This document shows positions 792-15,092 of a stretch of 29,054 bases of DNA, piece by piece; the stretch's first letter is position 1, and every line of letters starts with the position of its first letter. The stretch is taken from IMG/VR virus record IMGVR_UViG_3300038701_002503, positions 1-29,054 of that record, one strand, 5' to 3'. A program made the position numbers and the translations under genes. The notes under the pieces are model-generated. The model was not told where the DNA came from. It did no database searches and saw nothing but the letters and a program-made list of their open reading frames with translations. This DNA comes from a virus.

Positions 792-808
792 AGTTTTTCA
801 CCTTAAAG

Positions 809-841: not shown

Positions 842-872
842 CAACTGTAGAAACAAACATAAAACAATTACA

Positions 873-1253: not shown

Positions 1254-1254
1254 G

Positions 1255-1455
1255 ATGAAGTATTCAAGAAACCAAATAGAAAGAGCAAAGTTAGCAGTAA
1301 AAGAAGCTTACGATTCGTTGACAAGTAATAGCAATGAAGATCTTGACGCTGTCGGATTGTTTGACAACATTAAGGCTGAGCTTGTTATGCAGCATGACGC
1401 CTTTGATGACGCTTTAGAATTAATGGATCAAAAAGAAATTAACGATGGACAATAA
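1255..1455 (+). CDS. Small hypothetical acidic protein
   Basis: This 66-residue protein is rich in Asp and Glu and probably helical, with no recognised domain. It starts one base after the upstream stop. Its last codons (Asp-Gly-Gln-stop) overlap the next gene by 11 nt through the sequence ATGGACAATAA, an arrangement repeated exactly at the next junction (1782-1792). This tight overlap suggests translational coupling. Confidence 0.65.
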   Translation: MKYSRNQIERAKLAVKEAYDSLTSNSNEDLDAVGLFDNIKAELVMQHDAFDDALELMDQKEINDGQ

Positions 1456-2234: not shown

Positions 2235-2236
2235 TT

Positions 2237-3058
2237 ATGAGCAGCGAGAAAAATAAAAAGATTTTAGATAAAATTAGAAAATTGCTTGCAAAAGCGAAAG
2301 ACCCAGCAGCTACTGAAAGTGAAATGGAAGCTTTTATGAAAAAAGCAAAGGAGCTGATGATGATTAACGACATCGAGGAATCTAGTATTGAGATTCACGT
2401 TTCAGATATTAATAAATCAGTTACCGTTTCAGAATTGTTTAAGCATTTCAAATTCAAATACGCTGATTTTGAGTGGGAATTAATGGATGTTATTGGTAAA
2501 GCCTACAACTGTAAAGTCTACTCAAAAAAACTATGGGATTCTGAATTGAGAGCTAGAAAAAAAGTTCAATTAACTTTAATAGGTACTGAGCAAAACAGGT
2601 TGGTGGCAATGGAAACATATGAAGTTTTATCTCATAAGTTCTTGAATTTCTTTTACTCTAGATATAAAGAATACAAGGTTAAAACGAAAGCTGATCATAT
2701 TAATAAAATGATAAGCATGGGATTGAAACCCGAAAAAGTAGACCTAAAAAGCTTAGAAAGAATTGGTGTAATGTCTACCAGAAGTGCATGGGCTGGATCA
2801 TATTTATCAGGATGCGTCGCTGGTTTGAGATCGGCTTACAGAGAGCAGCAGTCGGAGACGCTTAAAAAAATAGACTCACAGAAACACGGTTTGATGGTTC
2901 TAAAAATGAACGAACTGATTGAATTAGCTGTGCCAGCTTTAATAGGTAAAACTAGAGAAGTGAATAACGTAGGTAAAAAAGGATTAATAGATAGAGCAGC
3001 TTTCAATGAAGGATACGCTGACGGAAGATCAAGTAATACTAACAAATTAATAGGTTAA
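2237..3058 (+). CDS. DUF2786 family protein
   Basis: This 273-residue protein has an N-terminal segment (about residues 5-50; KILDKIRKLLAKAKDPAATE, then an EAFMKKAKELM helix) that matches the DUF2786 signature common in phage and prophage proteins. The central part (about 60-200) is basic and contains an AWAGSYLSGCVAGL segment. The C-terminus ends in FNEGYADGRSS, the Gly-Arg-rich ending typical of the family. No function is established for DUF2786. The family call is fairly secure; any role in DNA metabolism would be a guess. Confidence 0.75.
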   Translation: MSSEKNKKILDKIRKLLAKAKDPAATESEMEAFMKKAKELMMINDIEESSIEIHVSDINKSVTVSELFKHFKFKYADFEWELMDVIGKAYNCKVYSKKLWDSELRARKKVQLTLIGTEQNRLVAMETYEVLSHKFLNFFYSRYKEYKVKTKADHINKMISMGLKPEKVDLKSLERIGVMSTRSAWAGSYLSGCVAGLRSAYREQQSETLKKIDSQKHGLMVLKMNELIELAVPALIGKTREVNNVGKKGLIDRAAFNEGYADGRSSNTNKLIG

Positions 3059-3061
3059 ATA

Positions 3062-3436
3062 ATGAAACTAATTACAGAACAAGAAGCTGTCGCAATCATT
3101 GAAGAGAAGTGTGCTTCAGCAAGTATTCACTCACTTTTTTTAAAAGGTGTAATAATGGGGTCAGTCAAAGCTGCCATGGATCTAGCTGCTGTGAAAATTG
3201 AGGCAGCTAAAAAAGATCACGAAGCACTTAACCCAGACAGACGCCAACGTTTAACAACTGTTTTAAGAAGTTATTGTAATGGTGATATAAAAGACTCGCT
3301 TAGGTCTCTTATGGTTGAAAACGAACTGACTTTTAAGGAGTGGATTGAGCTTAGACATAGTGGTGACATTGACTACTTATCGCATAGCCAGTTCGAAATA
3401 ATTAGTTCACTTTTTAACAGACGAAACGATGCATAA
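3062..3436 (+). CDS. Hypothetical protein
   Basis: This 124-residue, mostly helical soluble protein is not recognised. Its N-terminal half (residues 1-55) is Ala-rich and could form a long amphipathic helix; the second half is mixed charge. The ATG follows the DUF2786 gene by three bases and the end overlaps the next membrane protein by 8 nt. Function unknown. Confidence 0.65.
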   Translation: MKLITEQEAVAIIEEKCASASIHSLFLKGVIMGSVKAAMDLAAVKIEAAKKDHEALNPDRRQRLTTVLRSYCNGDIKDSLRSLMVENELTFKEWIELRHSGDIDYLSHSQFEIISSLFNRRNDA

Positions 3437-3620
3437 AGATTTGACAGACTGGTTGTATTTAATAGGAGGAATTATTGCGTTCTCTGCTGTTTTTACTTTT
3501 TTAATCTTTACGATTCTAGATAATCAGAAAATGAAAAAAGATTATCTAGACACGATGAATTGGTTAGCTGAACATGAATCTAAAAAAAACCAAGATGGCG
3601 AGAAAAGAAAAAATAGTTAA
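3429..3620 (+). CDS. Small single-pass membrane protein
   Basis: In this 63-residue protein, residues about 9-31 form one strongly hydrophobic segment (WLYLIGGIIAFSAVFTFLIF), followed by a charged tail that is probably cytoplasmic. There is no cleavage site, so it is probably an anchored membrane peptide. Small membrane proteins in phage early operons often act on the host envelope or in superinfection exclusion; that role is inference. Overlaps with both neighbours support a genuine gene. Confidence 0.65.
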   Translation: MHKDLTDWLYLIGGIIAFSAVFTFLIFTILDNQKMKKDYLDTMNWLAEHESKKNQDGEKRKNS

Positions 3621-3882
3621 GGTTCCACCTATACATTCAGTCAGCTTTGATTTAAACGGGTTAACTGAATCAGGTAAAAAGTTAATAAAAGGAACTCACG
3701 CTGTATCACCTCTAGACAAGAATAAAACCTTATGCAGCTTAGATATTCACGACAACGTATATGACGCAGAGCCTGAAATCAAAACAGAGCGAATCAGGGT
3801 TACTTGCGACAGTTGTGCGAAAATTATTCACTATTGTAAGCAAAACAGCACTGATGCCAGAATCATTAGAAAAGACGATTAA
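3595..3882 (+). CDS. Zinc-ribbon-like small protein
   Basis: I start this 95-residue protein at the ATG at 3595 (Met-Ala-Arg-Lys) rather than at the upstream ATG at 3574, because that shortens the overlap with the previous gene to 26 nt. A His (in GTHAVS), a Cys (in KTLCS) and a C-terminal CxxC (RIRVTCDSCAKII) could bind one zinc ion, as in several small phage proteins of unknown function. The N-terminus is Lys-rich. Nucleic-acid binding is plausible but not shown. Confidence 0.6.
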   Translation: MARKEKIVKVPPIHSVSFDLNGLTESGKKLIKGTHAVSPLDKNKTLCSLDIHDNVYDAEPEIKTERIRVTCDSCAKIIHYCKQNSTDARIIRKDD

Positions 3883-3964
3883 AGAAAAGCTTGACAGCTT
3901 GATATCAAAAAACAAAACAATCAAAAAACTGATTGACGTTTTTAAATTATCACCAGATGACTAA
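3854..3964 (+). CDS. Very small basic hypothetical protein
   Basis: A 36-residue frame from the ATG at 3854 overlaps the previous gene by 29 nt and the next by 8 nt. The product is Lys/Leu/Ile-rich and could form a single amphipathic helix. The same frame stays open upstream to 3761, but that would overlap the zinc-ribbon-like gene by 122 nt. It fills the only gap between two likely genes, which is the main argument that it is real. Confidence 0.45.
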   Translation: MPESLEKTIKEKLDSLISKNKTIKKLIDVFKLSPDD

Positions 3965-4241
3965 AAAAAATCTAAACACAATTAAAAACCTAATTAAGGT
4001 TCAAGGTAAGGAACAAAGCATTGATAAGATTCAAGAGGAAGCTATGGAATTGTCTCTTGAGATGCATCAATACAAATGCCCTACCAAGAACAAAAAGAAG
4101 CGTTTGGAACGTGTTTATTTAGAGCTGGCTGATATGAAAATACAAATGAGAAAGGCTGAAATGCTTTTTAGCAAAAAGAAAATCAACCGTTTAGTTAATA
4201 AGAAGCTTGACGAACAAAGAAAAAAGCATGGGATTAAATAA
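3957..4241 (+). CDS. Hypothetical coiled-coil-like protein
   Basis: This 94-residue, highly charged protein is probably almost entirely helical, with a basic C-terminus. The ATG at 3957 is preferred to a non-ATG start at 3933. An IQEEAMELSLEMHQYK helix followed by an ELADMKIQM segment recalls the EExxE-type helices of MazG-like phage proteins (an E..E in a helix followed by ExxD), but it is too divergent for a firm call. It overlaps the next gene by 14 nt. Confidence 0.6.
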   Translation: MTKKNLNTIKNLIKVQGKEQSIDKIQEEAMELSLEMHQYKCPTKNKKKRLERVYLELADMKIQMRKAEMLFSKKKINRLVNKKLDEQRKKHGIK

Positions 4242-4512
4242 AAAGATACTCATTGTTGGTCACCTTAGTATTGGAAAAACAACTTTACCTGAAGCTAAAT
4301 CAGTTCGACTAGAAAACTTAAAAAAAGAGTTGGATAAATCTAGTAATGCAGCAACAAATGAAAATGTGAAAAAAAGTTTGGTGACTGATGCTGTTGAAAT
4401 TATGAGTCTCAGAAGTTACAACAAGACGAAAAATCTAGAATCTTATTACCCAGGTAAAAGTAAAAGAAACCAAAGACGAAGTAAAAAACGTCGTAAAAGT
4501 AAAAGAAAATGA
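4228..4512 (+). CDS. Hypothetical protein with very basic tail
   Basis: The ATG at 4228 gives 94 residues; the frame is open further upstream from a TTG at 4207, but the ATG start is preferred. GHLSIGKTT near the N-terminus superficially resembles a P-loop but lacks the rest of an NTPase fold. The last 20 or so residues are almost only Lys, Arg and Ser, as in several other proteins of this window. The stop overlaps the next start as ATGA. Function unknown; the tail suggests nucleic-acid contact. Confidence 0.55.
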   Translation: MGLNKKILIVGHLSIGKTTLPEAKSVRLENLKKELDKSSNAATNENVKKSLVTDAVEIMSLRSYNKTKNLESYYPGKSKRNQRRSKKRRKSKRK

Positions 4513-4625
4513 TTAAAGAAATAATCGGATTAATTGTTTGCGCTGTTGTTTATATAGTATTAAGGCAATTAGCTATAAATAAAATCATGTCTGACGGGTA
4601 TGAAACAAAAGATAATTTTAAATAA
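4509..4625 (+). CDS. Tiny membrane protein
   Basis: A 38-residue frame begins in an ATGA overlap with the preceding stop. Residues about 4-24 are hydrophobic (IIGLIVCAVVYIVL) and form one likely transmembrane helix, followed by a polar tail. The start/stop overlap and the continuous gene packing support it. Function unknown. Confidence 0.55.
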   Translation: MIKEIIGLIVCAVVYIVLRQLAINKIMSDGYETKDNFK

Positions 4626-4632
4626 GAAAATT

Positions 4633-4833
4633 ATGGATCTAAATACTGCATTAAAAAGAACTAAGGTTGGTGAATCAAAAATTATCGGGAAATCGATTTC
4701 GATTAATATTTCTCAAAACGGTTATCAGTCTTTAAGTATTGATATTGAGTTGACTCAAGCTGAAGTTCTTCAAGAAAAACTTAAAAAAGAAATAGAGAAA
4801 ATAAAAAGGAAAGCTGACGCCTTAGACAAGTAA
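4633..4833 (+). CDS. Small hypothetical protein
   Basis: This is a 66-residue protein from the ATG at 4633 (Met-Asp-Leu-Asn). An in-frame ATG at 4600 would add 11 residues but overlap the upstream tiny membrane gene by 26 nt. The N-terminal part (TALKRTKVGESKIIGKSISI) looks beta-rich and the C-terminal 30 residues form a charged helix (EVLQEKLKKEIEKIKRK). Not recognised. Confidence 0.55.
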   Translation: MDLNTALKRTKVGESKIIGKSISINISQNGYQSLSIDIELTQAEVLQEKLKKEIEKIKRKADALDK

Positions 4834-4854
4834 GCAAAATAAAAATAGATTAAA

Positions 4855-5751
4855 ATGTTAAAATCTGATTTAATTGAAGCCTTTAAGGAAACTCTAAAAG
4901 ATCCTAAGGTGGTTAGTAAAATGGCTGAAAGCTTTGCAAATGAAGTTATTAAGCAAAAAACAGCAGTAAACAATGACGAAGATAGAGCTGTGAAAGCTCA
5001 TGTTATTTTTGCTGACAAAGGCGACACAGATGCTACTTTCATGAACGCGAAAGACGTGCTGCATGAGCTTAGTTTGTTTGGTCATGAAGATCTGAGAGTT
5101 CGCACTTTAGGAAAGTCGCTTTTAAAAGATGCTAAAGACACTAAGCAAGCAAGCGGAGGTCGTGTGTATTTGATAAAGCAAATCATCAAGGACATCACGA
5201 AATACGAACCTACTAAGGCTGCTGTCAAAGACATTGATGTTAAAGATCCTGAGGAAGTTGAGACACAAGGGAAAGACAAAAAACCTAAAAAGAAAAAAGA
5301 CAAAAAATTAACAGCTGAAAAGCTTCCTACTAAAACACCTGAAGAAGCTTTTGACGAACCAAGCGAAGAGATACCTGATATTGAAAAAGTAAACATGAAC
5401 AAGTTGATTGAAGCTGGAAATGAATACGAAGATATTGATGCCATGAAAGAGCACTTGTCGAGCATGAGTATCAGCAAGCTTATCAAGTACATCAACAAAA
5501 ACGAGCTACCAGTAATGGCTAACAAATCTGACAACGAAGATACTGTTGTTGATAGAATCGTTGCTGTTTTTACTCATCACATGTCTAAAAATGACGCCGA
5601 GCAAGCTAGTGAGACGCAAGCAGCAAAGGACAAAAAGAAAAAGAAGGAAAAGTCTAAAAAGAAGAACAAATCGGTTGAAGATGTTGATCTGGGCGAGTTG
5701 TCTAAAAAAGACAAGAAAAAGAAAAAGAAAAAGAAAAATAAGAAAAAGTAA
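4855..5751 (+). CDS. Lys-rich protein with possible SAP-like helical domain
   Basis: This 298-residue protein begins with a helical domain (about 1-120). A Lys-rich linker (about 140-160) and a second small helical segment (about 180-240: KLIKYINKNELPVMAN then DTVVDRIVAVF) follow; the latter resembles SAP-type DNA-binding helices, weakly. The C-terminus is a run of nearly pure lysine interrupted by Asp and Ser. The composition suggests a nucleic-acid-binding or scaffolding protein. It is the last gene of the left operon, just before a new promoter at 5772. Function not established. Confidence 0.65.
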   Translation: MLKSDLIEAFKETLKDPKVVSKMAESFANEVIKQKTAVNNDEDRAVKAHVIFADKGDTDATFMNAKDVLHELSLFGHEDLRVRTLGKSLLKDAKDTKQASGGRVYLIKQIIKDITKYEPTKAAVKDIDVKDPEEVETQGKDKKPKKKKDKKLTAEKLPTKTPEEAFDEPSEEIPDIEKVNMNKLIEAGNEYEDIDAMKEHLSSMSISKLIKYINKNELPVMANKSDNEDTVVDRIVAVFTHHMSKNDAEQASETQAAKDKKKKKEKSKKKNKSVEDVDLGELSKKDKKKKKKKKNKKK

Positions 5752-5771
5752 TTCTTTTTAAAATGTTTTAT

Positions 5772-5779
5772 TATCTTCG
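5772..5779 (+). promoter_or_regulatory. Promoter -7 element upstream of the helicase operon
   Basis: TATCTTCG followed by TGCTGTAG matches the core of the other promoters here (TATCTTCG-TGGTGTAG at 7836 and 23960). No good TTG lies at the expected -33 position; the nearest candidate is TTC at 5752-5754, 17 nt upstream. The element is therefore weaker or depends on an activator. Confidence 0.5.
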
Positions 5780-5831
5780 TGCTGTAGGCGCAAAAATATA
5801 ATGATAAAAGACATTATTATTTCATAAGCAT

Positions 5832-5906
5832 ACCAATCCAGGCACTTCACTAAAATCATTGTATTGTTAGTTTGTTGTCTACAAACCTGGGTTGGTTTTT
5901 GCTTTT
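5832..5906 (+). terminator. Long-loop hairpin with T tract: terminator or structured RNA
   Basis: ACCAATCCAGG (5832-5842) pairs with CCTGGGTTGGT (5886-5896) over 11 bp with one G-U pair and no mismatch. The 3' arm runs into TTTTTGCTTTT. The loop of about 43 nt is unusually long for a simple terminator, so the element may be a structured leader or the 3' end of a short RNA begun at the promoter at 5772. Confidence 0.45.
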
Positions 5907-5919
5907 AAAAATATATATT

Positions 5920-6114
5920 ATGGCGATAGACAAATCAAATGTCGATGAAAACTATAATGAACTGATGAATCTTATGTCAGTTCAACCAATCAATCATTCA
6001 CACTATTTTCAGACAATGCTTAAAGTCAAAGAGCTATTAAAAAGAATAGACCTTGAGGCTTACAATAGAGGTTTCAAACATGCTGTTGAAATCGAATTCA
6101 AAAAACCTATTTAG
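5920..6114 (+). CDS. Small hypothetical protein
   Basis: This 64-residue protein begins at the ATG at 5920; the frame is open upstream from a TTG at 5872, but that would place the start inside the hairpin. It is mixed-charge and mostly helical, with an ELLKRIDLEAYNRGF segment towards the C-terminus. Its TAG is followed at once by the ATG of the next gene. Not recognised. Confidence 0.6.
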   Translation: MAIDKSNVDENYNELMNLMSVQPINHSHYFQTMLKVKELLKRIDLEAYNRGFKHAVEIEFKKPI

Positions 6115-6408
6115 ATGAATCAAGAAGCTGAACTTAAAAAAGAGTTAAGACATATCGAGATCAAAAAACAAAAAGTAAAAGATTCTTTTGAAAACGAAAA
6201 AGACTGGATAAGTTTTTGTCAATTAACAAAACCAATACCTCAAAAAAGAATTCCGAAAATGCCTTCAACTAATCTTGGTTGGTATTTATCTCAATATAAT
6301 TTAATACAGGAAAAAAAATCACAACTTACTCCGACTCAAAGAATACGAGTTAAAAACGTTGTTCATCATTATGCAAGGATAGGTGATATTAGTTTAACAT
6401 TTGAATAA
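6115..6408 (+). CDS. Hypothetical protein
   Basis: This 97-residue basic protein has a charged N-terminal helix (residues 1-30), a Pro/Lys-rich middle, the segment PSTNLGWYLSQ (about 50-60) and a basic C-terminal helix. STNLGW is also encoded in the leader upstream at 5878-5895. It lies directly between the small gene and the VirE-type helicase in a tight rightward operon. Function unknown. Confidence 0.6.
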   Translation: MNQEAELKKELRHIEIKKQKVKDSFENEKDWISFCQLTKPIPQKRIPKMPSTNLGWYLSQYNLIQEKKSQLTPTQRIRVKNVVHHYARIGDISLTFE

Positions 6409-6410
6409 AT

Positions 6411-7634
6411 ATGAAGTACGATGGAAAGAATAGTAAGGCTTTCAATTACATCGACTCTCAGTATGTTTTTAGATTTAATGTGGTCACTGGTTTTTACGAA
6501 TTTAGAAAAAGAAAAAAGAAATCTAAATGGAAGCTTTATGATGACAGATTTAAGAACAACCTGCTGCTAGAGTTGATGGCTGAATATATTGAGATTAGCG
6601 ATAATAAAGTCAATACATTTATTGAAAGTATTGAGTTTTCGCCAGATTACAATCCGTTCGAGGAGTACTTTGAAAGCCTACCGAAAAAGAAAAAGAAGAA
6701 AAACTATATTAAAAAACTAGCAAAAACAGTTCAAACTGATAACGATAAGAGATTTGCAAAAACGTTAGAAAGATTTTTAGTGGGTTGTATAGATTGCCTT
6801 ATGAGAACTGACAGCGTCAATGATGTTTGTTTGGTTTTTCAATCAAAGCAAGGTTTAGGTAAAACCAGGTGGATGAGATCGCTGCTACCTAAACAGTTTC
6901 AAAGTGAATATTTGTACGAGGGAAATATTGATACAAGCAATAAAGATCACGTCATGTACTTGAGCCAGTATTGGTTTATACATTTAGACGAGCTCGAGGC
7001 TTTAAACGGAAACGATATTAAGTCAATAAAGTCATACATAACCAGGCAGCGTATTTCTGTTCGCAAAGCCTATGGGCGATATAATAGCCATTTAATTAGA
7101 AGAGCGAGCTTCCTTGGCTCTGTAAACGATAATAAATTCTTGAGTGACATGACAGGAAACAGACGTTGGTTAGTTTTCAAAGTCAAGGGTATTGATTACA
7201 TGCACAAAATCAATCCTGATGATGTATGGGGTCAAGCTTATCAACTATGGAAAAAAGGATATAGACACTGGTTTGATATGGAGGAAATTGGATTCATTAA
7301 TGACCAAAACGAAAAATTCAGAAATGTTGGTTTAGAAGAGGAATTGCTTTTAAGATACTTTACATTTAACAAAAAAGAAGGTCTTGGTGAGCTTTTAAGC
7401 AGCAGCGAGGTGATAGAAAAAATAATCGTCAACGTCCCGGCTTTTACTTCAAAACTGTATGCAGTGAAAATGGGTAAAGCACTAAGCAAGCATTCAAAAT
7501 ATAAAAAACAATCAAGTGGCGTTCAAAGATACTTTGTAAACTACGAAGGAGTAGACGCTCCTGTAAGCAGTCCATCACCAGTCTCTCATTCAAAAAACAA
7601 AGAAATAGGTGAGGATGATGATTTACCATTTTAA
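6411..7634 (+). CDS. VirE-type (virulence-associated E) replicative helicase with SSB-like tail
   Basis: This 407-residue protein has a Walker A motif in FQSKQGLGKT (143-152) and a Walker B-like WFIHLDELEAL (188-198). Downstream RRASFLGSVNDNKFLSDMTGNRRWL is the arginine-finger and sensor region characteristic of the VirE/phage SF3-like helicase family (PF05272). Such ATPases usually sit behind a primase domain in one polypeptide; here the primase is a separate gene at 16320. The linker after the ATPase is Ser-rich and the protein ends in GEDDDLPF, which looks like the acidic protein-docking tip of bacterial SSB. It is likely the replicative helicase of the phage, loaded or recruited through that tip. 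Confidence 0.85.
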   Translation: MKYDGKNSKAFNYIDSQYVFRFNVVTGFYEFRKRKKKSKWKLYDDRFKNNLLLELMAEYIEISDNKVNTFIESIEFSPDYNPFEEYFESLPKKKKKKNYIKKLAKTVQTDNDKRFAKTLERFLVGCIDCLMRTDSVNDVCLVFQSKQGLGKTRWMRSLLPKQFQSEYLYEGNIDTSNKDHVMYLSQYWFIHLDELEALNGNDIKSIKSYITRQRISVRKAYGRYNSHLIRRASFLGSVNDNKFLSDMTGNRRWLVFKVKGIDYMHKINPDDVWGQAYQLWKKGYRHWFDMEEIGFINDQNEKFRNVGLEEELLLRYFTFNKKEGLGELLSSSEVIEKIIVNVPAFTSKLYAVKMGKALSKHSKYKKQSSGVQRYFVNYEGVDAPVSSPSPVSHSKNKEIGEDDDLPF

Positions 7635-7636
7635 TT

Positions 7637-7810
7637 ATGCCAGCAAACAATAAGATAAAGAAAAAAGAACATTATTTAATTATAGGGTGTTTCATGACTG
7701 AAGCAGATAATACTGTTGCGAACATCTCTAGAATTCTAGATATTTCTAAGTACAAAGTAAGTTATCATATTGACAAATATTTTGAGAATAAAAAAAAACC
7801 GGTGGAATAA
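7637..7810 (+). CDS. Small HTH-like DNA-binding protein
   Basis: This is a 57-residue protein. The segment NTVANISRILDISKYKVSYHIDKYF (about 25-49) reads like a helix-turn-helix: a first helix, a short turn at Asp-Ile-Ser, and a recognition helix. It starts two bases after the helicase stop, and its last codons (Lys-Lys-Pro-Val-Glu) lie inside the duplicated promoter cassette, as do the last codons of the gene at 23656. A regulator is plausible from the HTH; the target is unknown. Confidence 0.6.
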   Translation: MPANNKIKKKEHYLIIGCFMTEADNTVANISRILDISKYKVSYHIDKYFENKKKPVE

Positions 7811-7883
7811 TTTGGAATGAACTTGAGAATGGTTGTATCTTCGTGGTGTAGAAAACAAACAGTTAAAAACAATACATTATGGA
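7792..7883 (+). repeat. Duplicated ~92-bp promoter cassette, copy A
   Basis: Aligned without gaps to 23916-24007 (offset 16124 bp), this segment includes the end of the upstream gene, the promoter, the leader and the first codons of the next gene. I count 8 mismatches, all between the two promoter boxes (7822-7835); from the -7 box to the start codon, 41 bp or so, the copies are identical. Confidence 0.85.
7811..7843 (+). promoter_or_regulatory. Promoter for the small gene and FolE operon
   Basis: TTTG (7811-7814) and TATCTTCG (7836-7843) are spaced 21 nt apart, fitting the Bacteroidetes promoter. The leader GTAGAAAACAAACAG leads to the ATG at 7879. It drives the genes from 7879 into the deazaguanine cluster. 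Confidence 0.75.
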
Positions 7884-8055
7884 CAATTTATTAAATCTTG
7901 TAGAAACAAACGGAATTAAATTAGGAGCTAATTTAGATCACGGAAAAGTTACGATGGTACAATGCTTAAACGAAAAAGAATTGGCTGTTGGGTTTAATTT
8001 TACGAAAACAGTTTACTACCAAGTAGATGGATGGGGTAATTTAGTTGAACTTTAA
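7879..8055 (+). CDS. Small hypothetical protein
   Basis: This 58-residue protein starts with the ATG at the end of the conserved leader. It appears beta-rich (VTMVQCLNEKELAVGFNF, then VYYQVDGWGNLVEL) and looks like a small single-domain protein. Not recognised. Position directly behind a strong promoter, with the same leader as the gene at 24003, suggests high expression. The two downstream proteins are not similar to each other beyond the first residues. Confidence 0.6.
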   Translation: MDNLLNLVETNGIKLGANLDHGKVTMVQCLNEKELAVGFNFTKTVYYQVDGWGNLVEL

Positions 8056-8066
8056 AAAATAGCATT

Positions 8067-8759
8067 ATGAAAGTTATAGGATTCGCAGAACAATTTTACA
8101 CCTTGTGGGAAGTTGAAAAAACTAAAGTTGAAATAAATCGTTTTCAGTTCAAAGAAAAAACCCATTTTCTATATATTCAAAATTTATCGAAAGATTTAGA
8201 GATTGCAAAATCTAAAATCAATGAACCTTTTGAAATTGATACTAATTTAAGGGGTGAAAAAAGATCTTTTTACACAGAAGGTGATCCGCAAGGGGTGATT
8301 CCTGATACTGTTTTTAAGTTCGGAAAATATCAATATGAAGAGATTAAAAATTGCAGCGACACAGGTTATGTTAAATGGTATTACAGCGAGACAAACAATA
8401 GTCATGCCTTGGATTTGCTTTTAAAAAACGGTTATGAATTGATAGACGGTGTTTTATATGATTTAAACGAGGCTAAAAAACAAAAACATCTTTTAAATTT
8501 AAAACGAGGGCATTTGTTTAACAATAAGGAAAGAGTTGAGCTAAAAATAAAAACTATTGAGTCATTCAGTTTTGAAGGTTATTACGGAATCACTTATGTA
8601 AGGATTTACGAAACTGAATGCGGAAAAGAAGTTAAGTATATAGGCGGAAGTCCTTTAAATATTAGTGATGAAGATTTTGAATCAGTGAAAGCTACAATCA
8701 AGCACGACATTTATGAAGATCAAAACGAAACAAAAATACAACGAATAAAAAGATTATGA
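8067..8759 (+). CDS. Protein with exonuclease-X C-terminal-like and SSB-like segments
   Basis: This 230-residue protein has a middle segment, VFKFGKYQYEEIKNCSDTGYVKWYY (about 81-105), that matches the FGKYKGK..YLKWL pattern of the small domain at the C-terminus of ExoX-type nucleases. The C-terminal third (about 148-230: GYYGITYVRIYETECGKEVKYIG, then KATIKHDIYEDQNETKIQRIK) resembles an OB-like module appended to many phage replication proteins. No nuclease domain is present. It overlaps folE by 4 nt, so it may be co-translated with it. A role in DNA or RNA binding is inferred. Confidence 0.55.
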   Translation: MKVIGFAEQFYTLWEVEKTKVEINRFQFKEKTHFLYIQNLSKDLEIAKSKINEPFEIDTNLRGEKRSFYTEGDPQGVIPDTVFKFGKYQYEEIKNCSDTGYVKWYYSETNNSHALDLLLKNGYELIDGVLYDLNEAKKQKHLLNLKRGHLFNNKERVELKIKTIESFSFEGYYGITYVRIYETECGKEVKYIGGSPLNISDEDFESVKATIKHDIYEDQNETKIQRIKRL

Positions 8760-9406
8760 AAAACGATCCAGAATTAGGAAAAAAAGTTGCTGAGCACCTT
8801 AAGTCTTTAAGCTTAGAAACACCTGTCAAAAATGTAATGCAATACAGCGAAGCTGATAAGCTCGTTGTGATTGAAGAAAAATTCAAGTCAATCATGCAGA
8901 TGCTAGGTTTAGACCTTGAAAATGACAGCCTGCAAGAAACACCGAAACGAGTTTCAAAAATGTTTGTCAACGAAATATTTGAAGGGCTTGACTACAATAA
9001 TTTTCCACGATGCATGTCTGTTGAAAACGAATTTAAGTGCGACGAAATGGTAATTGAAGGAGGTATTGATGTCAGCAGCGTATGTGAGCATCATTTTCAA
9101 AATATAGAAGGAATTGCTAAGGTAGCCTATATTCCTAAAGATAAGGTCATGGGTTTATCAAAGCTTAATAGAGTAGTTAGGTTTTTTAGCAAGCGGCCAC
9201 AAGTGCAAGAGCGATTAGGTTTACAAATTCAGGCCGCATTATCTTTTATTCTAGAGACCGAAAATGTAGCTGTCGAAATAAGAGCCATTCACCATTGTGT
9301 TAAATCAAGAGGTATCGAGGATAAAAACTGCTGGACAACAACCAGGAAGCTTGGCGGAAGCTTTAAGGATCCAGAGGTTAGAAACGAATTTTTAAACACT
9401 AATTAA
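8756..9406 (+). CDS. folE: GTP cyclohydrolase I (FolE)
   Basis: This 216-residue enzyme converts GTP to 7,8-dihydroneopterin triphosphate, the first step to 7-deazaguanines. The zinc ligands are visible as Cys110 and His113 (CEHH) and Cys181 (IHHCV), and the motifs ETPKRVSKMF, AYIPKDKVMGLSKLNRVV and QVQERL are intact. The residue numbering agrees closely with the bacterial enzyme. It starts inside the end of the preceding gene (ATGA overlap). In a phage lacking other folate genes, the clear context is the queE/queD/dpdA cluster downstream, so it probably raises flux to modified bases in DNA. Confidence 0.95.
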   Translation: MKNDPELGKKVAEHLKSLSLETPVKNVMQYSEADKLVVIEEKFKSIMQMLGLDLENDSLQETPKRVSKMFVNEIFEGLDYNNFPRCMSVENEFKCDEMVIEGGIDVSSVCEHHFQNIEGIAKVAYIPKDKVMGLSKLNRVVRFFSKRPQVQERLGLQIQAALSFILETENVAVEIRAIHHCVKSRGIEDKNCWTTTRKLGGSFKDPEVRNEFLNTN

Positions 9407-9407
9407 G

Positions 9408-9707
9408 ATGAAACAAAAAAGAAAATCTTCAGAATCATTACATGATTACAATAAAAGAATGAACAAAAATAGATTTCCTTGGATTGATATTTTAGGATGG
9501 ATAGGTGTCCTTTTATTGCTACTAGCCTACTATTTAGTCACTCAGAAAATAGTTAGCCCAATTGGTTTAAATTATAATTTGATAAACTTATCTGGAGCCT
9601 CGATGCTTTGTGTAGTTTTTGTCAAAAAGAAAATTTGGTCAAACCTATTTTTAGAAATCGTATTCATCTCGATAGCGTTAATCGCGATCTATAAAAACTT
9701 ATTTTAA
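9408..9707 (+). CDS. CBU_0592-like membrane protein
   Basis: This 99-residue protein has a basic N-terminus (1-23) followed by probably three hydrophobic segments (about 24-45, 53-73 and 76-97). The pattern ILGWIGVLLLLLAYYLV, then a SGASMLCVVF turn and a C-terminal helix, is typical of the small CBU_0592 membrane family (function unknown). It sits between folE and queD with 1-nt spacing on each side, yet has no known link to deazaguanine synthesis; a role in the host envelope is possible. Confidence 0.65.
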   Translation: MKQKRKSSESLHDYNKRMNKNRFPWIDILGWIGVLLLLLAYYLVTQKIVSPIGLNYNLINLSGASMLCVVFVKKKIWSNLFLEIVFISIALIAIYKNLF

Positions 9708-9708
9708 T

Positions 9709-10188
9709 ATGTACCAATCAACAAAAATAATAGACGGATTCAGCACTTGTTTCAGACAATGGCGAGCAAAGACTTCACATTGCAGATTTATCCACGGTTA
9801 TTCAATTAGATTTAAACTTACTTTTCAAGCTGCAAAGTTGGATGACAGAAATTGGGTTCAAGATTTTGGTTTCACAAAAAGCAAACTAATGATTGAACCT
9901 AATGGCATAAGTATAAGTATCAAGGACTGGTTTAAATACATGTTTGATCATACAACTATTGTGGCAGAAGACGATCCTATGCTAGAGCTTTTTAAAGACT
10001 ATTCAGCTGAGGCTGATTGTGAAGGTGTTTTTGATTTAAGAATTTTACCAAATGTTGGTTGTGAGGCTTTTGCAAAATATGTATTCGATTTTATTTCTGA
10101 AAACATATTAGAAGGCCAAAGCAGAGTTTCGCTTATCTCTGTTGAGTGCATTGAAAACGAAAACAATTCAGCAATCTATAAAGATTAA
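9709..10188 (+). CDS. queD: QueD, 6-carboxytetrahydropterin synthase (phage type)
   Basis: This 159-residue T-fold enzyme is expected to turn dihydroneopterin triphosphate into 6-carboxytetrahydropterin. FSTCFRQWRAKTSHCRFIHGY (11-31) contains the Cys25 and His24/His29 region; the third His of the usual HGH motif is Tyr31, a variation I recall from phage QueD-like proteins. WVQDFGFTKSKL (49-60), FDHTTIVAEDDP (about 79-90) and the C-terminal GCEAFAKYV (the usual T/S-x-E helix) are present. It is longer than the ~120-residue bacterial enzyme. It is the last gene before a promoter at 10203. Confidence 0.85.
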   Translation: MYQSTKIIDGFSTCFRQWRAKTSHCRFIHGYSIRFKLTFQAAKLDDRNWVQDFGFTKSKLMIEPNGISISIKDWFKYMFDHTTIVAEDDPMLELFKDYSAEADCEGVFDLRILPNVGCEAFAKYVFDFISENILEGQSRVSLISVECIENENNSAIYKD

Positions 10189-10191
10189 TTT

Positions 10192-10207
10192 TGCAAAAAG
10201 TTTTGTG
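10192..10207. promoter_or_regulatory. Operator-like palindrome over the -33 box
   Basis: TGCAAAAAGTTTTGTG matches the 17210-17225 element at 14 of 16 positions. Its TTTTG half is the -33 box of the promoter that follows, so a bound protein would directly block or contact that promoter. Confidence 0.6.
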
Positions 10208-10231
10208 GTTGGATATATTGCCTTATATTTG
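10203..10231 (+). promoter_or_regulatory. Bacteroidetes-type promoter for the dpdA operon
   Basis: TTG at 10203-10205 and TATATTTG at 10224-10231, 18 nt apart, match the -33 and -7 elements. The leader (GCATGGTAGATAACAAAACA) is similar to the other leaders in the window. It drives the NUMOD4-like gene and the deazaguanine genes behind it. Confidence 0.75.
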
Positions 10232-10260
10232 CATGGTAGATAACAAAACAATTTTACACA

Positions 10261-11067
10261 ATGAGCACAAATTCACAAGTCAGTCACAAAACGCTTTTCG
10301 AAGATTTAGGTTATTTTATAGAGTACTTATATGATGACGGTAAATTAGCTGGAACAGTCAATGTTGATAAAAACGACAGAGATTCTGTAGGTTATTACAG
10401 CACTCAACATCACGTTGCTGAAAAAGATATTGTTTTTAAAAACAAACGGATTAAAAAAGGAATGAACTACCGAACTAGAATTTATCCAATGTGCGGTAAA
10501 ATAATAATTAATAAAATAGAAGATAAAATGCCAAAGCAAGTAGAAATCAAAAATGCGCCAGGTTATGTAATTACACCTGAAGGAATTGTAAGCAATGCAA
10601 AAACCAAAAAACCAGTTTCTGAATCAAAAGGTTCTGTTAGACTTACGGTTGACGGAAAAAGAAAAACGTTTAAAGTAAAAGACCTTTTAGTCACTTATTT
10701 TCCTAGTAATAACGTAGATGAGAAAAAAGGGAAAGGATGGAGTAAATCTGGTTCAGTAACTGCTGATGGCAAGCCTAAAGCTGATAGCAAGCCTAAAGCT
10801 GATAGCAAGCCTAAAGCTGATAGCAAGCCTAAAGCTGATAGCAAGCCTAAAGCTGATAGCAAGCCTAAAAAACTTTCTAGAAGCCAGGAAATTTATATTA
10901 TGCAAAGCGAAGGAAAAACAGCTAAAGAAATCAAAGAAGCTAACCCGGATTTCTCTTTAGGTCATATAGGCAACGCTTTAAGGCATGCTAAAAACAATCC
11001 AGAAGTGATTAAAAAAGCTAAAAAGCTGAAAAAGCTGAACGAAAAGTTTAAGTCTAAAAAGAAGTAA
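10261..11067 (+). CDS. NUMOD4-like DNA-binding protein with KPKADS repeats
   Basis: This is a 268-residue protein. Residues 1-88 form an unrecognised N-terminal domain. Residues about 90-135 (KNAPGYVITPEGIVSNAKTK, then DGKRKTFKVKDLLVTYF) match the NUMOD4-type DNA-binding motif of homing endonucleases. Residues 171-203 hold five perfect KPKADS repeats, and the C-terminus (SRSQEIYIMQSEGKTAKEIKEA) looks like a helix-turn-helix followed by a Lys-rich tail. No HNH or GIY-YIG nuclease domain is present, so it is more likely a DNA-binding regulator or nucleoid-type protein. It is the first gene behind the promoter at 10203. Confidence 0.65.
   Translation: MSTNSQVSHKTLFEDLGYFIEYLYDDGKLAGTVNVDKNDRDSVGYYSTQHHVAEKDIVFKNKRIKKGMNYRTRIYPMCGKIIINKIEDKMPKQVEIKNAPGYVITPEGIVSNAKTKKPVSESKGSVRLTVDGKRKTFKVKDLLVTYFPSNNVDEKKGKGWSKSGSVTADGKPKADSKPKADSKPKADSKPKADSKPKADSKPKKLSRSQEIYIMQSEGKTAKEIKEANPDFSLGHIGNALRHAKNNPEVIKKAKKLKKLNEKFKSKKK
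10771..10869 (+). repeat. 18-bp tandem repeat inside a gene
   Basis: Five perfect copies of AAGCCTAAAGCTGATAGC (10771-10860) are followed by a partial sixth (AAGCCTAAA, 10861-10869). They encode KPKADS units. Perfect DNA identity points to recent expansion by slippage, and copy number may vary between isolates. Confidence 0.9.
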
Positions 11068-11068
11068 G

Positions 11069-11416
11069 ATGAAGATTAATATAGTCGTAACTTTACAAGT
11101 AGAAGGAGTTCACAACTGGCCTGAGTGTCCGATTGAAGAAGTTAATTTTTTGAAACAGCTTCATAGGCATTTATTCAAAATCAAGTGTAAAAAAGAAGTC
11201 TCTCATGATGACAGAGATGTTGAAATCATACAGCTTAAAAGAAAAATTCAATACCACCTTAAAACAGAATATGGTATCGGGTACGAAGGGTTAAACGGTT
11301 GTCATTTTGGTAGAATGAGTTGTGAGCAAATAGCTCTAGAGCTTGTCAGAACTTTTGATTTGAACTATTGCGAAGTTCTTGAGGACGGAGAGAACGGTGC
11401 AGAAATAACAAAGTAA
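11069..11416 (+). CDS. Second QueD-like T-fold protein
   Basis: This 115-residue protein has the spacing of a small PTPS/QueD fold: GVHNWPEC (His15), then HRHLFKI (His32 and His34; compare HGHNYxV in QueD) and a C-terminal SCEQIALEL helix in place of TAENLA. All three putative zinc histidines are kept. An EVSHDDRDVEIIQLK segment is a hallmark I associate with a phage family of this fold with no assigned reaction. It has a 1-nt gap to the radical SAM gene. It may act on a pterin or on a deazaguanine; the fold call is fairly good, the reaction unknown. Confidence 0.6.
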   Translation: MKINIVVTLQVEGVHNWPECPIEEVNFLKQLHRHLFKIKCKKEVSHDDRDVEIIQLKRKIQYHLKTEYGIGYEGLNGCHFGRMSCEQIALELVRTFDLNYCEVLEDGENGAEITK

Positions 11417-11417
11417 T

Positions 11418-12137
11418 ATGAAAAAGATTAAAATTTTCGCAATGGAAACCACAAACCATTGCAATGCGAAATGTTGGTTTTGCCCGCATCCTGATCCAAA
11501 GCTGCATAATAGACCAAAGGGATTAGTGAGCATGGATACAGTAGATCAGATTATCAAGATGCAAGCTGCTGACACTATTTCAATCAACGGTTTAGGCGAA
11601 CCATTAATGCATCCAAGAATCATTGAAATAGTTCAGAAGTTTACCGACGCTGGTATCAAAACATTAATAAACAGTAATGGAAAGATGGTTACTCAAAAAA
11701 TGTACGACAATCTTTACGACGCTGGGTTAACTAGATTAGTAGTTGCGAGTGATTACTTTGAATGGAAAGAAGGAAAAGTAATTGAGAAAGACGATTTTAA
11801 AATAGAGCATATCGTAGTTGATTCTGAGCCAAAAGAGTTTCAAGAGAAAAAAGAGCTCTATGACTGGGCAAGCAGAGTTGGTGAAGCTAAAAATAAACCA
11901 ACGAATTGTTCGTATATTGAGGATAATTGGATCCAGGTTCAATGGGATGGACGAATTGTAAGATGCTGCCAAGATTTCAATACTGAGGAACCATTTGGAA
12001 CTATATTTGATTTTGATGCTGACGCTATTGCCGGAAAAGGAATAGACGCTTGCGGTACTTGCCAAGGCTTTAGATTTAAACATGCTTTGGTGGTTGGAGA
12101 TTACGAGGGATTAAAAGAACATAAAACAGAAAGATAA
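11418..12137 (+). CDS. Radical SAM enzyme with SPASM-like C-terminus
   Basis: This 239-residue protein has the CxxxCxxC motif at Cys15, Cys19 and Cys22 (HCNAKCWFC), binding the [4Fe-4S] cluster that cleaves S-adenosylmethionine. INGLGEPLMHP (about 54-64) is the GGE-like motif and TLINSNG follows the usual strand. The C-terminal part carries WDGRIVRCCQD and CGTCQG, typical of SPASM-type auxiliary cluster ligands. It is distinct from QueE, which is encoded separately at 14385. It is flanked by the T-fold protein and the glycosyltransferase and lies three genes before queE, so its substrate may be the 7-deazaguanine or a peptide; not known. Confidence 0.8.
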   Translation: MKKIKIFAMETTNHCNAKCWFCPHPDPKLHNRPKGLVSMDTVDQIIKMQAADTISINGLGEPLMHPRIIEIVQKFTDAGIKTLINSNGKMVTQKMYDNLYDAGLTRLVVASDYFEWKEGKVIEKDDFKIEHIVVDSEPKEFQEKKELYDWASRVGEAKNKPTNCSYIEDNWIQVQWDGRIVRCCQDFNTEEPFGTIFDFDADAIAGKGIDACGTCQGFRFKHALVVGDYEGLKEHKTER

Positions 12138-12138
12138 A

Positions 12139-13128
12139 ATGAAGATCATATACATAGCTTTAGAGAATATTGAGCAAAGATATACCCCAATGATGAACAG
12201 CAGCTTAGGCAAGTTGTGTGACGTTGTGGTTTACCCAGAATTCAATTATCCGGAAGTAATAGAGAAAGGTCAGTTTTTAGATGTAAATAAAACAATTATT
12301 TTCAAGTCTAAACAACTGCAAATGATATCGGAAATGTTCTACAACGGAAAAGTCAATGACGGAGATGTTTTTCTTGTTGGAGATATATTTTTTCCAGGTA
12401 TTGAGTCAATTAAATACATGGCTGAACTACAAGGTATTTCAGTTAAGGTTTACGGTTTTAATTACGCAGGTAGAGCTGATAAAACGGACTTCGTTCAAAA
12501 GCTTGGCGGATGGGCTGATTACAGTGAAAAAGGTTACCACTTAGTTTGTGACGGTATTTTTGTTGGTAGTCAGTTTCATAAAGCACAAGTTTGTGATCAC
12601 TTTCGTTTACCTGCTTCAATGGTTCATGTTACTGGTTATATATGGGACAGAGATTACGTCGAGAACATTTTTGACGGAACTTTTGAAAAAGAAGATTTTG
12701 TTATTTTTCCGCATAGGTTGTCAAAAGAAAAGGGTATCAAAGAGCTTTTACAGTTTGCAGCTATCACAGATAAAAAAATATTGGTAACCAGCAGCGGTAA
12801 TCGTGTTGATATTGAATTACCAGAAAATATTAACTATGTAAGCAACTTATCAAAGAAAAATTATTACCGATACTTGGCTAGAGCTAAATACTATTTGAGT
12901 ACCGCTTACCAAGAGACTTTTGGATATACACTTCAAGAAGCTATTCATTTCGGGTGCAAAATCGCAGTTCCTGACAGGGCTTGTTACAAAGAAATGGTTC
13001 CTTTAAGTGCTGTTTATAAAAGCGTTGAAACAATCGATTTCGTTGATGTTGATGAGAGTTATACCGAGCAATGGAATAAAAATGCTCACGACGTAATTAG
13101 GTTAATAAACAATGAGCGAAGAAAATGA
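12139..13128 (+). CDS. GT-B family glycosyltransferase (GT4-like)
   Basis: This 329-residue protein has an N-terminal Rossmann-like half without clear signature. The C-terminal half contains FPHRLSKEKGIKELL (about 194-208) and the EX7E motif of retaining GT-B enzymes (Glu259 and Glu267 in STAYQETFGYTLQEAIHFGC), followed by PDRACYKEM. The sugar donor is probably a nucleotide sugar. Its ATGA-type overlap with dpdA suggests a product used on the same pathway, for example glycosylation of the modified base in DNA, as phages do with hydroxymethylcytosine; this is inference. Alternatives are host-surface or capsid glycosylation. Confidence 0.75.
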   Translation: MKIIYIALENIEQRYTPMMNSSLGKLCDVVVYPEFNYPEVIEKGQFLDVNKTIIFKSKQLQMISEMFYNGKVNDGDVFLVGDIFFPGIESIKYMAELQGISVKVYGFNYAGRADKTDFVQKLGGWADYSEKGYHLVCDGIFVGSQFHKAQVCDHFRLPASMVHVTGYIWDRDYVENIFDGTFEKEDFVIFPHRLSKEKGIKELLQFAAITDKKILVTSSGNRVDIELPENINYVSNLSKKNYYRYLARAKYYLSTAYQETFGYTLQEAIHFGCKIAVPDRACYKEMVPLSAVYKSVETIDFVDVDESYTEQWNKNAHDVIRLINNERRK

Positions 13129-13922
13129 AAATAATAGTCGCCGGAAGTAACACAAGAGACGCTGAAAAAATTTGTAAAGAAAACAAAGTGATGAAGCTTT
13201 ATTCTCTTCTCAACGAAAGAAAACTGATTGAAAATTGGGATGACGAACACTTGCTTATGGTTGACAGTGGTGCTCATAGCTGGAACAAAGAAGGAATCAC
13301 TCCTGTCGGAATGAAAAGAAATTCAAAGCTCAAACCGGCTCGAGAATTTTACGATTTTTATTTAGATTTTATACAGCAGCACAAGGATAAAAAAGTGGTT
13401 TGGGTTGAATTTGACGTTTACGGACATTTACCAGTCAGCTTAATAGATGATTTTTACGATCAAGTTATGAGCATGAATATATCTGGTAAATTCATGAGAG
13501 TTTATCACCCAATGTTAGACGACGGAAGTATGTCTGTTTTAAAAAAATGGATGAATCAAGGTCATGAATATATAGGTATAGGAAACGACTCAACCAATAT
13601 GCTAGATGAAATATTTCACTTAACAAGGGATCAAACCAAGCTTCATGGTTTTGCGATGACAAAGCTTGGTTTGATGGAAAAATATCCGTTTTTCAGTGTT
13701 GATTCAACTTCACCTTTGAGTACCGTAATTTTTGGTAGATATACTAGGCCTATAATGGCTTTCAACGAAAGATCCGATATAAGCGAAGCGAAGTCAATTG
13801 AGTGCTTTGATGACGATTGGGACAGAATTGAAAACGCAATAATTGAAACAAAAAAAACCGAAGACTATGTTACAGAATTGTGGTCTAAAAAAGGAATACA
13901 ATGGCAGGATTTAAAATTTTAA
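13125..13922 (+). CDS. dpdA: DpdA-type DNA guanine transglycosylase
   Basis: This 265-residue protein belongs to the phage DpdA branch of the tRNA-guanine transglycosylase superfamily. It would swap guanine in DNA for a 7-deazaguanine by base exchange. The catalytic regions are visible: LMVDSGAHSW with Asp47, VWVEFDVYG (92-100), YIGIGND (149-155) and HGFAMT leading to FFSVDSTSP with Asp193. It lacks the zinc-binding Cys cluster of bacterial TGT and is shorter, as expected for phage members. It overlaps the glycosyltransferase by 4 nt and the ParB-like gene by 22 nt. The subfamily cannot be fixed by eye. Confidence 0.85.
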   Translation: MKIIVAGSNTRDAEKICKENKVMKLYSLLNERKLIENWDDEHLLMVDSGAHSWNKEGITPVGMKRNSKLKPAREFYDFYLDFIQQHKDKKVVWVEFDVYGHLPVSLIDDFYDQVMSMNISGKFMRVYHPMLDDGSMSVLKKWMNQGHEYIGIGNDSTNMLDEIFHLTRDQTKLHGFAMTKLGLMEKYPFFSVDSTSPLSTVIFGRYTRPIMAFNERSDISEAKSIECFDDDWDRIENAIIETKKTEDYVTELWSKKGIQWQDLKF

Positions 13923-14404
13923 AAACAAAAAAAATAGATTTACCAGAACACAACTTGGTAACCGAACTAGATCCGCTTGAAGCTTTAAGTTTTAAAAGAA
14001 TAGAAAACATCTTCGGTCAATATAAATCAATCACAGTTTGTGAAAAAAAAGGTAGGTATTTAATTGTTGACGGGGCAAAGCATTTTAAAAGCTTAATAGG
14101 ACAAGGTTTTGAAAAGATCCTTTGTTTTAATCTAGGTAAACTTAAAAAAGGCGAATACGAGACTACCAGAGCTCTTTTAAACGTACATCAATCTAGATTA
14201 GACTACTTAGGTATCGCAAAATTAATTGAGTCAATTAGAGACGATGATATGAGCTTGAACAATATATCAAACTTATCAGGTCTTGACTTGAAGTCGGTTG
14301 AAAGATATAAACAGTTATTGAAATTCGACTGGGAGGAATTTGATAAAAAAACGAAAAGCGAACAATTTAATCCTTTTGAAAGTTATGGAGAAGAAGAAGA
14401 GTAA
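13901..14404 (+). CDS. ParB/sulfiredoxin-like protein, DpdB-like
   Basis: This is a 167-residue protein. Residues about 20-75 form a ParB-like N-terminal domain (LDPLEALSFKRIENIF, then GRYLIVDGAKHFKSLIGQGF, where DGAKHF at 57-62 takes the place of the DGxxR/DGQR motif). A helix-turn-helix-like part (MSLNNISNLSGLDLKSVERYKQLL, about 110-135) and an acidic tail follow. In bacterial dpd clusters a ParB-like protein, DpdB, is needed together with DpdA for insertion of the base into DNA. The 22-nt overlap with dpdA makes the same partnership likely here. A plain partition or regulatory ParB is the alternative. Confidence 0.7.
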   Translation: MAGFKILKTKKIDLPEHNLVTELDPLEALSFKRIENIFGQYKSITVCEKKGRYLIVDGAKHFKSLIGQGFEKILCFNLGKLKKGEYETTRALLNVHQSRLDYLGIAKLIESIRDDDMSLNNISNLSGLDLKSVERYKQLLKFDWEEFDKKTKSEQFNPFESYGEEEE

Positions 14405-15092
14405 TTTAGTAATATCTGAAAAGTTTTACAGCATGCAAGGCGAGGGGCAAACCATAGGTGTTCCGGCTATATTTATAAGACTTGCTGCTTGTAATATACT
14501 ATGCAAGTCTGAAAGCTGGATTTGTGATTCAATTGAGGTATGGAAAAAAGGAACCAAAACAGAATTTGAAAATGTTTTAAGCGATTATGAAATCAGTTTA
14601 CTTAGACGAGGAGCTCATTTAATATGGACTGGCGGTGAACCGTTGCTGCATATGAAAAAAATAAATGAATACCTTGATTATCTTTGGTTAAACGAGATGT
14701 TTAGGCCAACTATGGAGATAGAAACGAACGGTACTTTGCCTATTAACGACACTTTATTCAGGCAACTTGATTATATCAATTGCTCGCCTAAGCTGCATAA
14801 CAGCGGGGTTGAATTTGAAAAAAGGGTCAACCTTGATGTTATCAGCCAAATTAACGAGCATCAAAATTCAATCTTTAAGTTTGTGATAAGCAACAAATCT
14901 GATCTAGACGAAATACACCAAGACTATGGCGGCATAATAGATCATAAAAAAATTGTTTTAATGCCTGCAGGCGAAACACAAGAAAAACTAAACGAAACAA
15001 GACCTAAAGTTGTTGAAGCTGCTCTTGAGCACGGATATAGATACAGCGATAGGCTTCATATAATAATTTGGAATCAAAAAACAGGAGTATAA
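14385..15092 (+). CDS. queE: QueE, 7-carboxy-7-deazaguanine synthase
   Basis: This 235-residue radical SAM enzyme rearranges 6-carboxytetrahydropterin to 7-carboxy-7-deazaguanine (CDG). SMQGEGQTIGVPAIFIRL (16-33) is the family signature. The cluster cysteines Cys36, Cys40 and Cys47 form a CX3CX6C motif, extended from the usual CX3CX2C. TGGEPL, EIETNGT and NCSPKLHNSG follow. I start at the ATG at 14385; an in-frame TTG at 14340 would overlap the ParB-like gene by 65 nt. The gene overlaps the next ATG by one base. With no QueC in the window, CDG may itself be the base supplied to DpdA. Confidence 0.9.
   Translation: MEKKKSNLVISEKFYSMQGEGQTIGVPAIFIRLAACNILCKSESWICDSIEVWKKGTKTEFENVLSDYEISLLRRGAHLIWTGGEPLLHMKKINEYLDYLWLNEMFRPTMEIETNGTLPINDTLFRQLDYINCSPKLHNSGVEFEKRVNLDVISQINEHQNSIFKFVISNKSDLDEIHQDYGGIIDHKKIVLMPAGETQEKLNETRPKVVEAALEHGYRYSDRLHIIIWNQKTGV

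Follow-up and report, generated by a model that had tools for sequence, protein, structure and literature searches.

A phage operon with a putative T-fold substitute for QueC and a glycosyltransferase dedicated to 7-deazaguanine DNA-modification clusters

The window analysed here, the whole IMG/VR record IMGVR_UViG_3300038701_002503 with a length of 29,054 bases, contains at positions 8756–15092 a single tightly packed plus-strand operon, as seen in profile scans of the window proteins. Judging by its gene content, the operon is probably a phage system for 7-deazaguanine modification of DNA, with the QueC step replaced and some of the DNA guanines exchanged. A preliminary description made from the letters alone had recognised FolE, QueD, QueE and a DpdA-type transglycosylase with intact key residues, and had found no QueC; profile matches and the DpdA alignment support the former, and a search of the whole record with the QueC profile PF06508, which gave no match, the latter. 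It had overlooked four genes of the operon (Table 1), namely those coding for a T-fold protein of the family phrog_17812, a radical S-adenosylmethionine (SAM) enzyme, a glycosyltransferase (GT) and a ParB-like protein. We give slightly better than an even chance to the model in which the phrog_17812 protein replaces QueC in acting on 7-carboxy-7-deazaguanine (CDG), the GT, together with the radical SAM enzyme, adds a sugar, and DpdA inserts the base into DNA.

Distribution of phrog_17812 and its mutual exclusion with QueC

The family phrog_17812 is viral: a search with one pattern found at least 593 loci in IMG/VR, compared with 19 among some 85,000 species genomes of bacteria and archaea, where the majority lie on virus-like contigs of metagenome-assembled genomes. 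In the first 97 loci the gene lies nearly always beside those of FolE, QueD, QueE and one of several DpdA types, with DpdA located within about 6 kb of it in 45 of the 49 full loci. QueC is encoded on none of the 50 whole contigs carrying phrog_17812, and a QueC match is absent in 10 of the 12 complete GenBank phages possessing the family; of the remaining two, Vibrio phage D479 has a partial match (33 bits) and phage X1 a sub-threshold one.

The exclusion was tested independently on loci anchored on QueE instead of phrog_17812. Among those with DpdA, 30 have only QueC, 15 only phrog_17812, four neither and none both (Fisher p = 2.5e-9; p = 2.3e-5 for all QueE loci), both p values overstating independence as the loci are related to each other. 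On the tree of 99 DpdA proteins the state switches between QueC and phrog_17812 at least four times. Because the family is mutually exclusive with QueC, whose substrate is CDG, it most simply acts on CDG as well, and we infer from this strong co-occurrence evidence that it processes CDG in place of QueC.

The same loci bear on the final base named in the preliminary description, which was CDG itself, inserted by DpdA so that the DNA would contain its deoxynucleoside, dCDG. QueC is indeed absent and QueE makes CDG, and the same possibility was raised for a QueC-less phage by Hutinet 2019 (PMC6884629). Against this, phrog_17812 is present in 15 of the 19 QueC-less DpdA clusters anchored on QueE, so CDG is probably processed. 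A dCDG phage would be expected to have FolE, QueD, QueE and DpdA and no further CDG-processing enzyme; the phrog_17812 protein is a candidate for such an enzyme. The QueC-less 7-deazaguanine cluster thus stands, while CDG as its end product is very unlikely because phrog_17812 and the GT, and with them the radical SAM enzyme, accompany the cluster.

Two loci show the family in other settings. In the Paenibacillus polymyxa ISL-58 chromosome contig (L191, about 1–12360) a homolog occurs with FolE and a radical SAM enzyme among genes resembling, by their sequence, those of glycosyltransferases, a carbamoyltransferase and sugar-nucleotide enzymes; DpdA was not detected, and the locus looks like a 7-deazaguanine-based natural-product gene cluster. 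In the Faecalibacterium phage Roos (L008, 9291–11887) a ParB-like gene, phrog_17812 and DpdA are followed by a gene for a YhhQ/VUT-type-like transporter, and FolE, QueD and QueE were not found near the phrog_17812–DpdA pair, so this phage may salvage a 7-deazaguanine precursor.

Comparison with the phiSM slot

QueC was not matched by PF06508 in the relatives L001 and L002 either. The larger contigs of two relatives, G001 (49,216 bases, from L001) and G003 (51,538 bases, from L016), match the complete genome of the Cellulophaga phage phiSM (54.6 kb) collinearly along the greater part of that genome, and a search for QueC and QueF beyond the window, suggested as a check in the preliminary description, was run on them and found neither (homolog searches, with PF14489 for QueF). 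The ends of G003 have 120 bases in common, located inside a tandem repeat, which fits a circular genome without proving it. In phiSM the slot contains FolE, QueF, DpdA, ParB, QueC, QueD and QueE; in G001 and G003 the genes of phrog_17812, GT and DpdA occupy the place of QueC and QueF. The DpdA proteins of the window-like phages are 24–29% identical to that of phiSM, compared with mostly 50–70% for the products of the flanking genes. By these alignments one module has been exchanged for another at the same position in the genome, and the difference is not the result of a truncated contig.

A QueC gene just outside the window, which had been considered earlier, is unlikely because G001 and G003 are collinear with complete phiSM and still have no QueC, and on these grounds it was rejected. 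QueF in place of QueC was rejected too: G001 and G003 gave no match, and among the weak PF14489 matches on other contigs one coincides with FolE by coordinates. QueC, characteristic of preQ0-type clusters such as those of CAjan and Rosebush, was found neither in the window nor in its relatives. The Gat-QueC, ArcS, QueF or QueF-L characteristic of dG+ and preQ1 systems were not found either, QueC being absent and PF14489 giving no match on G001 or G003, and ArcS not having been searched with its own model.

The other source of QueC that had been considered, the host, would supply preQ0, with DpdA inserting preQ0 or preQ1 and phrog_17812 and the GT being accessory. QueC is encoded by many bacteria, as seen in the control genomes, but phrog_17812 and QueC never share a locus, the phage brings the three earlier steps though hosts often have them too, and the module replaced both QueC and QueF in the phiSM slot, all of which makes a host supply highly improbable.

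Predicted fold and possible reaction of phrog_17812

A fold search was used for phrog_17812 because the hhalign comparison with phage QueD covered no more than the C-terminal half (82%). The AlphaFold2 model (predicted local distance difference test score, pLDDT, 93.7) has E. coli QueD (4ntk) as its best solved match in Foldseek, with a template modelling (TM) score of 0.73 and 14% identity; QueF-L structures are among the weaker matches. The invariant residues in 166–167 sequences are H15, L28, H32, H34, R49, E52, S84-C85-E86 and E105. From an alignment with 2dj6, a homolog of 6-pyruvoyltetrahydropterin synthase (PTPS), and from the QueD sequence, we take H15, H32 and H34 to be zinc ligands, E105 to be the Glu holding the pterin-like ring and Leu28 to occupy the site of the QueD Cys. 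The protein thus fits the QueD/PTPS superfamily in its T-fold, three predicted zinc histidines and base-anchoring Glu, and departs from QueD proper in missing both the catalytic Cys, at whose position, four residues before the HxH motif, all 166 sequences have Leu28, and the Asp-His dyad, which has no counterpart among the conserved columns.

The model suggests a pocket suited to a pterin-like bicycle and a reaction different from that of QueD, with CDG as the obvious candidate substrate and R49 as a candidate for contacting its carboxylate. The simplest option, which we hold with moderate confidence, is that the reaction is probably a zinc-assisted decarboxylation of CDG. Instead, the enzyme might convert the carboxylate to another handle, for example a reduced or activated one, to be glycosylated by the GT. 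T-fold enzymes include QueF and QueF-L, the latter among the weaker Foldseek matches, which act on the C7 substituent; the invariant Cys85 and Arg49 fit a carboxylate substrate, and a handle would account for the GT. The family is nevertheless present without the GT in other phages and has no conserved reductase or activating partner, and we regard this conversion as distinctly unlikely.

Cui et al. reportedly described both 2'-deoxy-7-deazaguanosine (dDG) and dCDG in phages in 2023 and predicted a CDG decarboxylase, DpdL. The context to be expected of DpdL is presumably that of the window, i.e. FolE, QueD, QueE and DpdA without QueC, and phrog_17812 may be DpdL itself. We know of no link between DpdL and a GT.

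Glycosyltransferase and tailoring genes

The AlphaFold2 model of the window GT (pLDDT 95.1) has structure matches of the GT-B/GT4 type, and the protein combines this predicted GT-B fold with an EX7E-type motif (E259/E267 in the window, some relatives having Asp at the first position), as expected of GT4. Because sequences vary too much across the full GT alignment (A2) for scanning a database with it, a closer GT set was used, and the GT-anchored search yielded 44 non-redundant loci with phrog_17812 in 42, DpdA in 38 and QueC in none; the two loci without phrog_17812 still have FolE, QueD and QueE. The GT is therefore dedicated to this pathway, and the possibility of its being a chance neighbour was ruled out by this reciprocal search. 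It is present with DpdA_w in all 26 loci and with DpdA_big in 15 of 16, as against none of 25 for DpdA_V, none of 13 for DpdA_ST and one of eight for DpdA_Roos. Such a split would fit a DpdA pocket accepting a sugared base, an idea against which weighs the occurrence of DpdA_w with QueC as well.

The GT might act elsewhere, for example, along with the radical SAM enzyme, on a host surface glycan, leaving plain dDG in the DNA through phrog_17812 and DpdA. This is consistent with the 38 loci out of 38 in which phrog_17812 accompanies DpdA_V or DpdA_ST without a GT, and with the dDG and the predicted decarboxylase DpdL reportedly described in phages. On the other hand, all 44 GT-anchored loci lie within 7-deazaguanine clusters, and the GT is tightly spaced with its partners in several gene orders (at most 39 nt from DpdA in 19 and at most 54 nt from phrog_17812 in 24 of 42 loci), so we consider plain dDG unlikely, though worth keeping in view. 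The three genes are also close together in the unrelated phages ACP17, PAC2, X1 and BUCT-ZZ01. Given this strong association, we infer that the GT glycosylates the 7-deazaguanine, with or without the help of the radical SAM enzyme.

The radical SAM enzyme, a candidate tailoring enzyme by its sequence, is 90% identical in L001, and relatives of it occupy this slot, or a place close to it, in L020, L083, L128 and L196. Other loci have beside the GT a second, longer radical SAM family (seven loci) or a pair of Gfo/Idh/MocA and alcohol dehydrogenase genes (four loci), and about a dozen contigs carry two GTs. This changeable set of tailoring-type genes fits sugar building.

Two kinds of genes differ in occurrence between loci with and without the GT. 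Short proteins with starts resembling WYGKEVEGR- or FIGDEVEH- (L016:6336–6779, L019:3453–3872, L003:5320–5718) were seen only in GT loci, and the two that were scanned have no match in Pfam. A gene resembling those of dCTP deaminase and dUTPase (L010:12078–12581, L005:6638–7195 and relatives) is present in 34 of the 58 phrog_17812 loci that lack a GT, and no GT locus has it.

Proposed pathway

In the proposed pathway FolE, QueD and QueE would take GTP to CDG by the established route. CDG would then be bound in the QueD-like pocket of phrog_17812 with its predicted zinc and most probably lose its carboxylate, giving 7-deazaguanine, on which the GT4-type GT, helped by the radical SAM enzyme, would add or tailor a sugar. 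DpdA with its ParB-like partner would swap DNA guanine for the base. The sugar might be attached while the base is still free or once it is in the DNA, and possible acceptors are the exocyclic amine, C7 itself and a handle made by the radical SAM enzyme. The likely purpose would be to shield phage DNA from host nucleases.

Several points weigh against this pathway. The loci behind the exclusion p values are related; QueC, without phrog_17812, accompanies two remote homologs of the GT (91 and 110 bits; L134, L151); and the radical SAM family of the window is missing from most GT loci. Plain 7-deazaguanine offers the GT no hydroxyl or amine at C7, so the sugar would have to go onto the exocyclic amine, be joined through carbon or use a handle provided by the radical SAM enzyme. 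The only proposal for decarboxylation at the CDG level in the literature searched concerns tubercidin biosynthesis and uses TubF, a UbiD enzyme unrelated to phrog_17812 (PMC6112128).

Extended beyond the window, the pathway would define a widespread class of phages with glycosylated 7-deazaguanine in their DNA, in which a T-fold enzyme diverts CDG from QueC and a GT4 enzyme with changeable tailoring (radical SAM enzymes of two families, pairs of dehydrogenases and in some cases another GT) builds the sugar. We put this forward tentatively, with a little less than an even chance.

Gene content of the operon

Table 1 Genes of the operon with their positions in the window and the supporting matches
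Product	Positions	Strand	Evidence
FolE, GTP cyclohydrolase I (GTP to dihydroneopterin triphosphate)	8756..9406	+	PF01227 2e-56; phrog_2197 3e-71; exceeds NCBIfam FolE cut-off
CBU_0592-family small membrane protein	9408..9707	+	NF047864 41 bits vs cut-off 25
QueD-type 6-carboxytetrahydropterin synthase	9709..10188	+	PF01242 (PTPS) 1e-13; phrog_2389 1e-40
Protein with HNH-like DNA-binding stretch and KADSKP repeats	10261..11067	+	phrog_959 0.002
phrog_17812 T-fold protein, 115 residues	11069..11416	+	phrog_17812 6e-25
Radical SAM enzyme, weak SPASM-like C-terminus	11418..12137	+	PF04055 5e-10; SPASM 0.009
GT4-type (GT-B fold) glycosyltransferase	12139..13128	+	PF00534 1.6e-9
DpdA-type DNA guanine transglycosylase	13125..13922	+	phrog_887 1.4e-13
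ParB-like protein	13901..14404	+	phrog_16545 2e-4
QueE, CDG synthase, radical SAM	14385..15092	+	phrog_2076 2e-56; invariant cysteines

The stop of the GT gene and the start of the DpdA gene overlap by 4 bases, the open reading frame of QueE opens at 14340 with TTG, and a gene coding for a DNA polymerase III beta clamp follows that of QueE. As expected of DpdA systems, the transglycosylase resembles tRNA-guanine transglycosylase (TGT) and retains the catalytic Asp residues (D47-S48-G49, D97, H174 and S191-x-D193-S194 are invariant in an alignment with 14 relatives), and the precursor genes of FolE, QueD and QueE are all in the operon. The ParB-like protein is probably a partner of DpdA; in L020 DpdA and ParB_N are found within one open frame.

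The window QueD retains C25 and the DH dyad with HGY in place of HGH (alignment A3). Phage QueD proteins of this group likewise have the zinc motif HGY, with an invariant Gln at the expected zinc His, and keep the Cys and Asp-His residues. A role of phrog_17812 in supplying zinc to this atypical QueD was ruled out, as this type of QueD is also present in phiSM, which has no phrog_17812. In viral QueE proteins the spacing of the third Cys varies from CX3CX2C to CX3CX13C, being CX3CX6C in the window and usually CX3CX2C.

The protein encoded at 10261–11067 carries tandem KADSKP repeats between its HNH-like stretch and a basic C-terminus, and in the L001 copy the repeats (KADKTV) are more numerous, so that their number differs among phages. 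It has homologs in L001 and L016, its relatives were seen only in loci with both phrog_17812 and the GT, and it possibly stands outside the pathway.

Comparison with known systems

The phiSM/phi38:2 group shares the genome backbone and the slot with the window-like phages, FolE, QueD and QueE being 53–69% identical, but possesses QueC and QueF, has no phrog_17812, GT or radical SAM enzyme, and its DpdA is distant (24% identical). Cellulophaga phiST, Chryseobacterium MA9V-3 and Vibrio D479 resemble the window in having FolE and phrog_17812 near a TGT-like gene, the former two also QueD and QueE, and no full-length QueC; they differ in their DpdA_ST or DpdA_V types, the absence of the GT and, often, a dCTP-deaminase-like gene. 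In Acidovorax ACP17, the Pseudomonas PAC2/PA5oct group, Xanthomonas X1 and Synechococcus BUCT-ZZ01 phrog_17812, GT and DpdA are clustered as in the window, with QueE nearby and no full-length QueC, whereas their DpdA is larger (DpdA_big) and the radical SAM enzyme of the window was not detected beside them. Cultured phages are thus available both with the combination of phrog_17812 and GT (ACP17, the PA5oct group, X1) and with phrog_17812 alone (phiST, MA9V-3), and the mutual exclusion of QueC and phrog_17812 provides a simple sequence rule predicting the 7-deazaguanine branch of a phage.

That 7-deazaguanine derivatives can carry a sugar is shown by huimycin, a glycosylated 7-deazapurine natural product (PMC7439116). 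The huimycin and dapiramicin pathways likewise have a GT acting on such a derivative, but through QueC (preQ0), and lead to a small molecule and not to DNA (PMC7439116). The literature searched yielded no report that connects a GT to 7-deazaguanine in DNA, and within it the new part appears to be a GT dedicated to 7-deazaguanine DNA-modification clusters. The modified base of this phage may bear a sugar, which as far as could be found would be unreported in DNA. To our knowledge, the 7-deazaguanine bases of phage DNA have small groups at C7. The closest functional parallel would be the T4 DNA glucosyltransferases, which are phage enzymes of the GT-B type that mask DNA with sugar, though they act on 5-hydroxymethylcytosine and belong to GT families different from that of the window GT. 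If the proposal is correct, glycosylation in DNA would not be confined to pyrimidines but would extend to guanine, and the sugar would form a bulkier shield than the small C7 groups, comparable to T4 glucosylation.

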